Of a stretch of 64,000 nt of DNA, positions 14,561 through 40,509 are shown one piece after another; the first letter of the stretch is position 1; each line of letters starts with the position of its first letter. The stretch covers positions 40,025,039 through 40,089,038 of the forward strand of contig OZ020487.1 of assembly GCA_963971405.1 (NCBI GenBank), given 5' to 3'. The notes under the pieces are model-generated. The model did not search any database. It had not been told where the DNA came from and was given only the letters and a program-made list of their open reading frames with translations. The translations under genes were made by a program, and so were the position numbers. Source of the DNA: Psococerastis gibbosa. Its lineage: Eukaryota > Arthropoda > Insecta > Psocodea > Psocidae.

Positions 14561-14735
14561 GGAGTTAGGGCTATAAATCTTGCTGTTACAATCAACTAGG
14601 AAGGCTTGGGACCGACTGCTTTACATGCCCTCCGAAGCAAGAACCAAGAAATTTAGTAAGTGTGGGCCTCAAGCCAACAACCTTTCGGGTGAAAGTCAGA
14701 GTCCGTAGAATTCGTATCACTACTCCAGATGTCCT
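14561..14735 (-). repeat. SINE-1 copy within a tandem duplication
   Basis: The minus strand contains the box-B region in degenerate form (motif CAACAACCTTTCGGGTGAAA on plus) plus the GGAGTTAGGGCTATAAA and TACATGCCCTCCGAAGCA blocks. Part of the SINE is included in the 238-bp duplication unit. Confidence 0.7.
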
Positions 14736-15078
14736 GAGTGACTGAGATTGATTTACTAAATTGTCTTCGTCTTTACCTACTGCAACTATGGCTATGTCGT
14801 CCGCATATCCCTCAAGTTCAATACCCTCTGAAAGTTTCAACTAACCTAACCGACTGCTTTACATGCCCTCCGAAGCATGAACCAAGAAATTTAGTAAGTG
14901 TGGGACTCAAGCCAACAACCTTTCGGGTGAAAGTCAGAGTCCGTAGAATTCGTATCACTACTCCAGATGTCCTGAGTGACTGAGATTGATTTTCTAAATC
15001 GTCTTCGTCTTTACCTGCTGCAACTATGACTATATCGTCCGCATATCCCTCAAGTTCAATACCTTCTGAAAGTTTCAA
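14613..15078. repeat. 238-bp tandem duplication (SINE part plus YADD motif)
   Basis: 14613-14840 and 14851-15078 are near-identical and offset by exactly 238 bp. The unit joins a SINE-1 fragment to the reverse transcriptase YADD segment, so the RT catalytic box occurs twice (14796-14807 and 15034-15045). The first copy is attached to CTAACCTAAC, which bridges the two units. Confidence 0.9.
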
Positions 15079-15600
15079 ACGAAACAGCTCATCATAGAGG
15101 ATCGATAGCTTTGGATTTAGAACGGATCCTTGAGGGATTCCTACCGGCTTACTATGATTATTTTCAATCTTAAACTGGGATTAAAAATTTAAACAAGACA
15201 CTATTTAATTAGAATGAAGTGCTGCTGTTCCAAATTGTTTTGTTTACATTTTAAACCCCAAGAATAAGTTAATACTAAATGGCATATCAGGCCCGCAGCC
15301 GTCACCTCTATTTGAATTAGTAAGCCCTCCGCTTCCGCTCTTACTACTAGTTTTTCATGACGTCTTCTTGTATCAACCATAACAGGTAGGCTAACACTTA
15401 TTCCGATCTCCCGAAGTTCTGCTGAAATATGGAACCTGGATGCAATGTTGAAAGCATTTCTGATATTAAGGGTGACCACAGCCGGGATTTTGCGTGTGTA
15501 CCTGGTGTCAGCTGCTGCATTATCGCCAGCTCTCATTACTCCTTCGATAGTGGCAATTGTCGATTTACCCATTTTAAACCCATATTAGTTTTTCAATCAT
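14736..15600 (-). pseudogene. Broken non-LTR reverse transcriptase (palm domain)
   Basis: Read on the minus strand from about 15600. First comes YGFKMGKSTIATIEGVMRAG (RT-1 type block, after a stop), then VVTLNIRNAFNIASRFHI (palm, where an active RT has DVxNAFN). After the MITE at 15183-15297 the frame resumes with PVGIPQGSVLNPKLSILYDE and the catalytic box GYADDIVIVA, followed by the duplicated downstream part. The blocks and spacing fit a Jockey/R1-type RT. The first catalytic Asp position reads as Asn-Ile-Arg rather than Asp-Val-Lys. Stops, a MITE and a tandem duplication make it non-functional. Endonuclease and C-terminal parts are absent. Confidence 0.85.
15183..15297 (-). mobile_element. 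MITE family B inserted in the RT pseudogene
   Basis: The palindromic core (TAATCTTAAAC..., GTAAACAAAACAATTTGGAA) separates two parts of the RT palm that are adjacent in intact enzymes (VTAAG and PVGIPQGSV). Other copies at 22215, 31566, 46079, 54138 and 58184. Confidence 0.75.
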
Positions 15601-15932
15601 TCAAGGCACGTGAAACAAGATCGTAGTTCTAAATGTGAACATAGTAGTAAGGAAAGTCGGAAAATGCTGTGATGGAGTTGGCATGGTTCATCTTGAGTCG
15701 CACGATGAAAAGGGAAAGACCTAAACAAGACGAAGCAGCAGCAGTAGAAAAAGACTCAAATATCCTGAAGTAATGCTGAAGAGCGGTTCCAAGGTATGTT
15801 GCAGGAGGAAAATTTGAAGTGGCCATTTAATAGTAACTAAACGCAGGTTACCTTGGGTTTCTTTTTATTTCATTCAGGCATCTAAATAATTAGCATATTT
15901 AAGCTACCTTATTTGCAAACCTTGTTACTGTA
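15601..15932. other. No gene seen
   Basis: A 65-codon minus frame exists at 15629-15826, but no motif is recognised. It could be upstream LINE sequence. Confidence 0.3.
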
Positions 15933-16190
15933 TGAAGAACCAGTAGAATCCGGGCTGATGGGCCGTGGTCGAATTGAAAGTGAACTTCCAAACGTTTCGT
16001 CAACATCTGCGGTCGACATCTTCAGTGGCGCTGCGTAGACTTCGAACGTTGTACCTCGGTGGCCCCGTAGCGAGTGACTGGGTAGGGGGCTGCGCACTGA
16101 CCATTATACCTGGACGCTGTTGTTGTGTTGAGAGCGAACGCACTTTCAATTCGACCACGGCCCATCAGCCCGGATTCTACTGGTTCTTCA
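15933..16190. mobile_element. Perfect 50-bp inverted repeats around a Penelope-like ribozyme region
   Basis: 15933-15982 and 16141-16190 are exact reverse complements over 50 bp, with a 158-bp spacer. Sequence identity stops abruptly at both outer edges. The spacer contains a hammerhead-ribozyme motif on the minus strand. Hammerhead motifs in the pseudo-LTRs of Penelope-like elements are established, and I infer that this is a Penelope-like terminal segment or a derivative. No RT or GIY-YIG frame adjoins it. Confidence 0.6.
15984..16030 (-). ncRNA. Hammerhead ribozyme motif (Penelope-like type)
   Basis: Minus strand, 5' to 3': stem I strand CCA, core CUGAAGA (16019-16025), stem II GUCGAC (16012-16017), loop CGCAGAU, stem II return GUUGAC (15999-16004), then GAAA (15995-15998). 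A two-base-pair stem III AC/GU with no loop follows, then U17 as cleavage nucleotide, then UGG pairing with CCA. All conserved core positions are present. One departure: an extra U sits between A9 and stem II, which could weaken activity. The very short stem III is characteristic of hammerheads in Penelope-like elements and retrozymes. Activity cannot be judged by reading. Confidence 0.65.
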
Positions 16191-17732
16191 TTTGACTCCG
16201 GCCGTGAAAGCCTTTGCAGTTACCCTGTTACTGTATATGACAGTAAATGAAATAAGTCTTCTTACTAGGCTCGTTGGAATTTCCAAAACCTGTAAATAAT
16301 TGTACGCTTTTAACGAATGAACACGTCCAAAAATAGCCTCATACAAGCCTAACTCGATAAACTTCTTTACTGAGTAAATTATATTTCCCAACCTTGAATA
16401 CATTTGCTGATTGCTGTAGGCCTGCAGGATTATAAGGAAGCAGGTTCACCATGAGAGTTTGCTGAGGAAATACCACAAACCACTGAAATAACACGTATTC
16501 CATTAGCGGCCGCCTTTATAAGCATTTAAACATGTACCAAAGTAAACTAAGCTACATTCGATATTAATTTATATTTTAAGCTGAACTTCCTTCACATTTT
16601 GCTCACTGCTCACGTGCCACTATTTTAAATTGTGTTAGTTCATTTAATTAATTTGGTTAATTTCAGCAGTAGAACTGAAGTACCAGGAGACCGAGCATAA
16701 AACTCGGCTGGTATAGTGAAAATAATTCATCTAGACTATAAATGAAATTGCTGTTTCCTCAAGGAAGTTATTTTTCGTAACTACTTTAGGCATGCCCTCT
16801 GATTTCCATATTTTCCTTCTTAATTGGGGTAAAAATTGACTGAAGTGTTAGGGGAAGTTAAAAATGATATCTTCAGTGTTTAAAGAGTACATATTATAGG
16901 ATAAAGAGAAATTAGAAAACATGACTATAGTGATGGTAGTGATGCTATAAGGTGTGTACCTACTGCTCGTTGTATCGCAAGATGGACACTGGGTGTATTT
17001 AAAAGTGTAAATGTTGATGGGAAAAATTATACTATTAATGATTGGTAATTCACGATGCAGCATTTTCTTTAAAAATTTCTGATGATCATTATGGTTATTT
17101 AAATTTTCAGGACGATGTTCAATGCTGATTAAGTTGTGTTAATTGTGGAATAAACTGAAGAATGGAACAAGTGAGTCCGATGTAAGCCGGTGGTTGTAGA
17201 CCGTTGGATTCAGTCCGTTGGATTCAGTCCGTTGGATTCAATCCAATGCCGGTGGATGTACCTGCATCCGGACTTAAGTCCACAAAATGTGTCGAGTTAC
17301 AAATCACTAATGTAGACATATATACGAATAAAGAAATTTCACATACTGTACATAAGAAAAGCACCCATTTGTTACGTATACATTTTTAACGAGAATTTTC
17401 TTTTACTTTTTTTCTACTTTTTTCTAGCATAATGCAGAATACTCGTTGAAAACACCACCGCATGTCTAGTGGCAAACTGTAAAACTCCTAGCAATAGATC
17501 TGTACAAATTTTGTTTTGAAGAAGCATTGTAATTTAAAGTTCTTGATGGACACTTCACCGCAAATTGGAAAAAGTTTTTATCGTATACTTCAACTTCCCC
17601 TCGAACCCTTCAAACCATAAATGAATCAAAAGTTCCGGGTTACATTAGTGGATATTGATAAAGTTTAGAAAGTAAGGTAGGCCGGAGCTATTTTGTTATT
17701 TAAAGACCGGCAGGAATAGGAGCGGTATAGAC
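16191..17732. other. No gene seen; small tandem repeat at 17201-17244
   Basis: Mostly AT-rich. At 17201-17244 a 14-bp unit (CAGTCCGTTGGATT) occurs about three times. No exon signal I can defend. Confidence 0.35.
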
Positions 17733-32373: not shown

Positions 32374-32544
32374 GGTTATAACCGAAATTAGAGGGTATAG
32401 AAAGGCTGGGCTTGGCGGGATTCGAACCCACGATCTACTCCTAACCAGGGCGTCGTCTTAAGTGCTGGATCACAAATCCTCGACAAGAACAGTTGATGTA
32501 TATACTCTACTTATATTTTCTATATCCTCTAATTTCTGTTATAA
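32374..32544 (-). repeat. Hairpin-flanked tRNA-like element
   Basis: Outer arms GGTTATAACCGAAATTAGAG (32374 on) and CTCTAATTTCTGTTATAAC (to 32544) are inverted repeats. Inside, the minus strand carries box B GGGTTCGAATCCCGCC (32414-32429) and a box-A-like stretch near 32465-32480. The core is related to 5481-5560. A tRNA-like SINE core inside a palindrome is unusual. Confidence 0.55.
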
Positions 32545-39847: not shown

Positions 39848-40509
39848 CCCGATCTATGGCTGTACGGTATTGATCCAAAGTCAGTGTTATGGGGTGTTTT
39901 AAGTGCTTACAATTATACTATACATTTCATTTTAACAAAATAAATACCTGCTTAAATTCAATCGCTGATTCAGAGCATGATATTGCGATATTCAACAACT
40001 AAAATGGCGCCGATCTATGGCTATATTGACCCAAAGCTGCCTGTGTTATGGGGTATTTTAAGGGCTTACAATGTTATACATTACACATTTCATTTTAACA
40101 AAATAAATTTCTGCTCGAATTCAATTACTGATTCAGAGCATGATATTGCGATATTAAACAACTAAAATGGCGCCGATCTATGGCTACATTGATCCAAAGC
40201 TGCCTGTGTTATGGGGTCTTTTCAGTGCTACAATATTATACATTATGCATTTCATTTTAACAAAATAAATCCCTGCTCGAATTCAATTACTGATTCAGAG
40301 CATGATATTGCGATATTCAACAACTAAAATGGCACCGATATATGGCAATATTGCTCCAATTAAAGCTGACTGTGTTATGGGGTATTTTAAGGTGCTTACA
40401 ATTGTACAATACATTTCATTTTAACAAAATAAATACCTGCTCAAATTCAATCGCTTCAATTCAGAGCATGATATTACGATATTCAACAACTAAAATGGTG
40501 CCGATCTAG
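39848..40509 (+). repeat. Tandem repeat, ~163-bp unit, about four copies
   Basis: Units begin near GCCGATCTATGGC (about 39848, 40007, 40170, 40332 and a partial at 40497). Each contains GTGTTATGGGGT, TTCATTTTAACAAAATAAAT and CAGAGCATGATATTGCGATA. Unit length is satellite-like, but the array is short. Confidence 0.93.

Follow-up and report, generated by a model that had tools for sequence, protein, structure and literature searches.

The inverted repeat analysed here very probably belongs to an insertion, made of two cDNA arms primed on the two strands of its target and truncated at the 5' end, of a Penelope-like element (PLE) that is abundant and recently active, and the arm starts of sister insertions suggest cutting by the element's hammerhead ribozyme in vivo. 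The repeat lies in a stretch of 64,000 nucleotides from Psococerastis gibbosa (hereafter the window). By its sequence, the insertion consists of two head-to-head cDNA arms that lie between 11-bp target duplications, start at +87 and +120 of the element's open reading frame (ORF) and run toward the pLTR. This architecture of inverted pLTRs with an optional tail is already published and so is known, and the window insertion is an ordinary member of that known kind. What is new here is that arm starts pile up where the hammerhead is predicted to cleave. No report of arm starts at a hammerhead cut was found in the literature searched, outside which lay Craig 2021, the Terminon paper and the primary PLE hammerhead papers of 2014 and 2017.

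Two cDNA arms and two internal starts

The window carries a 51-bp perfect inverted repeat with a 158-nt spacer, the right arm (16141–16191) matching the left (15932–15982) perfectly; by a rough reckoning, the chance expectation for a perfect inverted repeat of 20 bp with a loop below 400 in 64 kb is ~2e-5. The initial annotation had noticed exact inverted repeats of 50 bp, which are real and measure one base pair more. The repeat exists because this stretch is common to both cDNA arms. The short-end arm (15933–16140, minus strand) comprises the pLTR and the PLE ORF as far as codon 29, with its end at ORF +87, and is 88–97% like copies in the genome. The long-end arm (16141–16223, plus strand) is inverted and extends from about +38 to +120 of the ORF; it starts 8 nt to the 3' side of the point where the ribozyme is predicted to cut. 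The copy ends at 15933 on its short side and at 16223 on its long side, and holds only 29 codons of the PLE ORF. The same 11-mer, TGTTACTGTAT, flanks it on both sides as an 11-bp target-site duplication (15923–15933 and 16226–16236). Where the two arms overlap they are identical at 51 of 51 positions, which points to a recent insertion.

At 28 loci, complete arms end near either ~+87 (short) or ~+120 (long) of the ORF. Sister insertions were sampled from 100 exact 24-mer anchors, taken first by position (0–13.0 Mb of contig C1) and not across the whole genome. These gave 85 insertions, of which 68 remained once look-alike junctions had been removed; 45 are two-armed, and the arms number 113. 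Some duplicates persist among the 68 (C1:5417501 with 10198661, for instance, or portions of C1:2997364–2997561 with 3201325–3201479), and two arm calls are doubtful (9882969+ and 3959042+); tests were repeated without both. The region C1:2.97–3.74 Mb (L053–L066) is a duplicated block in which PLE insertions with identical junctions recur every ~80–200 kb. Another locus (L009, C15:20589000–20596500) looks palindromic, its pLTRs inverted in order and its flanks mirrored.

A short end is paired with a long one in 42 of the 45 two-armed insertions (22 short–long, 20 long–short; binomial P = 4e-10 against one half). By eye, the three short+short pairs are a short+long pair with a 1-nt deletion (126975/127060), a three-piece insertion (2997364) and a degenerate one (10399475). 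Moreover, flank duplications measure 7 bp or more in 37 of the 45 pairs (median 12), compared with 89 of 1980 mismatched pairings. A check proposed in the initial annotation was whether copies of the repeat end sharply at the same edges: the outer ends fall near one of two sites, whereas the inner extent of the overlap differs from one insertion to the next.

We propose that the element's endonuclease/reverse transcriptase (RT) would nick both target strands, that each nicked strand would prime a cDNA from one of two start sites within the element RNA, and that the two cDNAs would meet and be joined, often by microhomology. Each cDNA would stop at the end of its RNA, be this the promoter start, a point within the element or a 5' end made by the hammerhead. 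Such a scheme would account for the target duplication, for arms that stand head-to-head, for the pairing of a short with a long end (the short+long rule) and for the two pile-ups of arm starts described below.

Head-to-head arms could instead come from self-priming of a single cDNA or of an antisense RNA, an origin that we think quite unlikely. Self-priming was inferred, in a part of PMC3846280, from palindromes at the inverted junctions of Adineta PLEs, and several junctions here are near-perfect palindromes. Yet an arm pair made by snap-back would carry one start, whereas short+long ends in 42 of 45 pairs imply that the two arms began at different sites; moreover, many joints carry sequence that is extra or asymmetric. 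It is highly improbable that the unit is a separate compact element, MITE-like or retrozyme-like, with terminal inverted repeats (TIRs) of its own. Perfect short inverted repeats with no PLE RT beside them would suit such an element, but the pLTR and tail run in frame into a full-length PLE ORF, the ends match internal RT starts and not TIR ends, and the overlap of the arms varies among copies. This last point led us to reject a MITE or other TIR element; a retrozyme was rejected because the unit is derived from an ORF and is a single two-armed one, with no tandem copy in the window. The initial annotation had offered a retrozyme-like or solo-terminal unit. The solo-terminal unit stands and the separate compact derivative falls, the repeats being the overlap of one insertion's two cDNA arms.

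The parent element and neighbouring sequences

A search of the genome (409 Mb) with a 258-bp query gave 1728 first-look candidates, of which 40 were scored, and an exact 24-mer derived from the arms has 2515 genome copies. The whole element at C1:5714100–5720900 has the same start and two direct pLTRs 2629 bp apart, a spacing found at two places in the genome. Its open frame of 910 residues (882 from the AUG) contains YVDD and GVY..YIG motifs; against Pfam, this ORF matches RVT_1 at E = 1.6e-11, and GIY-YIG does not score at E ≤ 0.01, the GVY..YIG motif being visible by eye. Stop-free full-length ORFs occur at three places and are 99–100% alike. Because its copies are nearly identical, the PLE appears to have been active recently. 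Relatives retrieved with the window query encode an endonuclease 74–77% identical, in complete matches, to that of the C1:5714100–5720900 element, so the window copy is apparently a member of a sister subfamily. Two marks of a PLE are seen in the family: its pLTRs are both direct and inverted and overlap the ORF start, and a 30–40 bp tail on one end accompanies the target duplication. No match to pieces of the element turned up in pattern scans of viral and genomic contig collections.

The initial annotation had seen no RT frame beside the motif. An RT-like fragment does adjoin it, LINE-like by motif and not of the PLE, whose RT-encoding partner lies elsewhere. This neighbour (14818–15180, minus strand) scores 21.2 bits against RVT_1, below the Pfam cutoff, and on the motif reading we rejected it as the PLE's partner. 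RT fragments that are LINE-like by motif (YADDIVIV; RVT_1 E 2.6e-4, short of the curated cutoff) occupy 14592–15584 (minus strand), outside the PLE, and include a 238-bp tandem duplication (14611–15078) with copies 97% alike. Elsewhere in the window, 32407–32479 (minus strand) has an Rfam tRNA match of 33.1 bits that is absent from the ARAGORN output and is perhaps a tRNA-derived repeat, and at 39868–40508 a 163-bp unit is repeated in tandem, with four copies.

The hammerhead and its predicted cut

On the minus strand, positions 15988–16028 read CCA-CUGAAGA-U-GUCGAC(CGCAGAU)GUUGAC-GAA-ACGU-U|UGG, a minimal type I hammerhead core in which CUGANGA, stem II (stem-loop at 15999–16017), GAA-A, H17 and stem I are all in place. 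Cleavage is predicted between 15991 and 15990, which would leave an RNA 5' end at UGGAAGUU. Every letter of the core described in the initial annotation was found, and its reading of the motif as a minimal hammerhead of the PLE type, lying in the terminal repeat of a PLE, was right. The conservation it had called for among genome copies is there too: across 48 arms that span the core, every position is conserved in at least 94%, and both core strings are intact together in 38 of the 48. As letters, the hammerhead motif is real and conserved in the family.

The covariance-model check, likewise suggested at the outset, came out the other way: a search of 15700–16400 with Rfam gave no hammerhead up to E = 10, and a search of the whole window at gathering cutoffs gave none. 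CRISPR-DR25 and other weak Rfam matches (E 1.8 and worse) were taken as chance. The minimum-energy fold of a 49-nt piece has stem I (3 bp) and stem II with the core mostly open; for a 58-nt piece the hammerhead fold was not obtained, and its stability is no better than that of shuffles (z = +1.0). Minimal PLE hammerheads that lack helix III are described in a section of PMC6155905.

The AUG start codon of the PLE ORF (16017–16019, minus strand) overlaps the hammerhead, and translation from it begins MSTADVDETFGSS..., as does that of the full-length copy. The A of the AUG is A9 of the hammerhead, its U is an 'extra U' that had been noted as either a family variant or a defect, and the predicted cut falls after ORF +29. 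The same extra U follows A9 in a second hammerhead family of this genome, so it looks like a family trait: a variant, supplied by the start codon, and not a defect. Since the hammerhead overlaps the AUG, cutting would detach the AUG from its ORF and turn a messenger into a template.

Arm starts, the points at which cDNAs stop, are numbered from d = 0, the base with which the predicted 3' cleavage product begins. Those of the window copy lie at d = +8 and ~-150, neither at the predicted cut; one arm spans the intact hammerhead and the other halts 8 nt short of the cut. Among the 113 sampled arms from C1, 17 start at -1..+3 (3.4 per nt), 23 at +4..+26 (1.0 per nt), 21 at -60..-2 (0.36 per nt), 38 at -95..-61 (1.1 per nt), 12 beyond -96 and 2 at +27. 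With the two doubtful arms left out, the 5-nt interval at -1 tops the scanned range (scan p ~5e-5, uniform null), and the pile-up has a Poisson p of 2.3e-4 against its denser flank. A second pile-up, of 24 arms at -92..-81, lies ~30 nt downstream of TATA-like motifs recognized by eye in both subfamilies, and fits cDNAs that ran off the transcript start. In the window, the corresponding TATA-like motif (GGTATAATGGTC; 16099–16110, minus strand) would be a candidate promoter element ~30 nt upstream of this pile-up, which places the likely transcription start region at 16070–16080 (minus strand), -92 to -81 from the cut in sister copies.

A genome-wide junction pattern, in which both arms reach +1 and start at most 17 nt apart, gave 30 matches at 29 loci, and its reversed-pattern control gave 0. 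The pattern is blind to arm starts at +2 or later and thus tests only for overrun past the cut. Of the 58 arms, 57 start at -2..+1, with 30 exactly at 0 and 18 at -1, calls that a chance match of neighbouring letters may shift by a base. As a control, the same design placed 19 nt upstream gave 4 matches, of which the element accounts for 2; placed 17 nt downstream it gave 22, spread over the range. Two junction loci (127017 and 131318) also fall within the C1 sample, six others were read, and 21 of the 29 are known from the pattern match alone. By eye, each of the six has its own target duplication (one with a mismatch), and because these differ the six appear to be separate insertion events; the scripted flank test found a duplication in 2 of the six. 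Five are long+short, and one (L120) joins a long end to an end that lies within the short one. In L121 and L122 an extra inverted snippet sits in the joint. Two loci, C14:45163799 and 45364312, have one joint in common and may be duplicates. On the evidence of these sequences, arm starts at the scissile bond in sister insertions suggest that the RNA is cut in vivo and that cut RNA serves as a template.

The pile-up at the cut could also arise without the ribozyme, if RT stalled at folded RNA or if microhomology chose the joint, and we regard this as unlikely. In its favour, stem I and the cut product share their first base, and other joints of the family look set by microhomology. One joint, at -11/-27 on the two strands of stem II, accounts for 11 of 16 matches (9 identical in every letter, 2 with substitutions), which reflect either a hot spot for microhomology or the copying of a single event; a CGAAGTTC joint is common to 6 of the 22 matches of the downstream design. 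However, a stall at stem I should, we reason, halt the cDNA at ~+3 or later, yet the junction arms gather at 0 and -1, in a comparison to which arms at +2 or later are invisible. The 8-nt palindrome AAACGTTT that adjoins the cut would be the natural choice of microhomology for two such ends, but it is used in 0 of the 29 junctions. Moreover, the joint has no extra letter at 13 of these loci and one at 4, as expected for run-off; the remaining 12 have three or more.

Other results weigh against cutting by the hammerhead, among them the negative Rfam search, the window copy's own arm starts, which miss the cut, and the Anolis findings given below. The cut-site stop shows weakly for arms whose partner reaches the promoter: 9 of 19 near-cut second arms start at -2..+1, the total of 19 being no larger than the 27 of the upstream control. 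One further exact-letter call in this class is a longer arm with a substitution, and two of the nine cut arms are neighbours with one joint. The second hammerhead family (CTGATGATGGGAGTAGCACCCACTCCCGAAACGT; L114–L119) has 287 exact 22-mers and is arranged head-to-head in L114 and L115; across the genome it gave 1 both-arm junction only, away from its cut, in a comparison of low power. Among the first 100 of 393 places listed, CTGAAGATGTTGACGAAACGT, a hammerhead with stem II seemingly deleted between GATG repeats, is recurrent, as is CTGATGATGAACCTGTATACGAAACGT; both are possible derived repeats.

We see roughly an even chance that the PLE hammerhead cuts in vivo, that the AUG-less cut RNA is a normal template and that the two RNAs of one complex tend to be cut together. 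Co-cutting could come about if a dimeric hammerhead, joined through the palindromic ACGU stem III, cut both RNAs. Both arms are at the cut in 28 cases (29 less one), against 4 in which a cut arm is joined to an upstream arm (one perhaps not from the element); a promoter arm is joined to a cut arm in 9 (of 19), against 26 (27 less one for background) in which it is joined to an upstream arm. Fisher's test on this two-by-two table gives P ~4e-7, for a table that was built after seeing the data and from windows that are not strictly matched. Both arms lie wholly 3' of the cut in 10 of the 45 sampled pairs (permutation p 0.02). That the two arms of a pair tend to agree in being cut or uncut would fit dimeric hammerheads. 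Judging by the title of a 2017 paper by Lunse, PLE hammerheads reportedly may cleave as dimers.

Known systems

Thousands of insertions preserve, in their arm starts, a cost-free record of template RNA ends. If the pile-up repeats in other PLE families and species, cleavage in vivo and the use of cut RNA as a template would be shown, and the overlap of ribozyme and start codon would have its reason.

Metazoan retrozymes, as described in part of PMC7229834, resemble the window unit in having a type I hammerhead and a length of a few hundred nucleotides; they differ in being non-autonomous, with linear and circular RNA, whereas the window unit is an ORF-derived PLE fragment. Terminons, according to sections of PMC6431247, are PLE relatives with hammerheads, as here, but they are giant and attached to telomeres and have the hammerhead at the 3' end, whereas here it belongs to a canonical PLE and sits where the ORF begins. 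The same sections suggest cleavage as an auxiliary preprocessing of RNA templates for PLE-type hammerheads.

The closest architectural parallels in the text of PMC3846280 that we draw on are Pen2a and Pen3 of Adineta vaga, which have inverted head-to-head pLTRs, a target duplication of 8–10 bp and a 31-bp tail on one inverted pLTR, like the tail here. They differ in their low copy number; the word hammerhead is absent from that text. They differ also with regard to the short+long rule, which in the window family was counted on 45 pairs.

PAc of Anolis carolinensis, of the Penelope/Poseidon clade, is like the window family in that its ORF start overlaps a hammerhead, it has two internal RT starts and its pLTRs stand in tandem (PMC11167929). 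Its hammerhead cuts 26 nt after the start codon, and its RT starts lie 111–118 nt into the ORF, their spacing giving the 30–40 nt tail (PMC11167929). In that 2024 biochemical study, insertion in vitro does not need cleavage, and no RNA-seq reads end at the cut (PMC11167929). In the window family, by contrast, genomic arm starts pile up at the cut.

Hammerheads are conserved in all PLE sequences considered in a section of PMC6155905, and the minimal type I hammerheads of PLEs are like the window motif in having no real helix III, a conserved core and a location in the pLTR (parts of PMC7761336 and PMC6155905). A passage of the 2020 review holds that PLE hammerheads may cleave as dimers (PMC7761336), and another calls their activity and role in vivo 'still a mystery' (PMC7761336). 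Set beside these earlier minimal PLE hammerheads, the arm starts described here offer a genomic footprint of activity.
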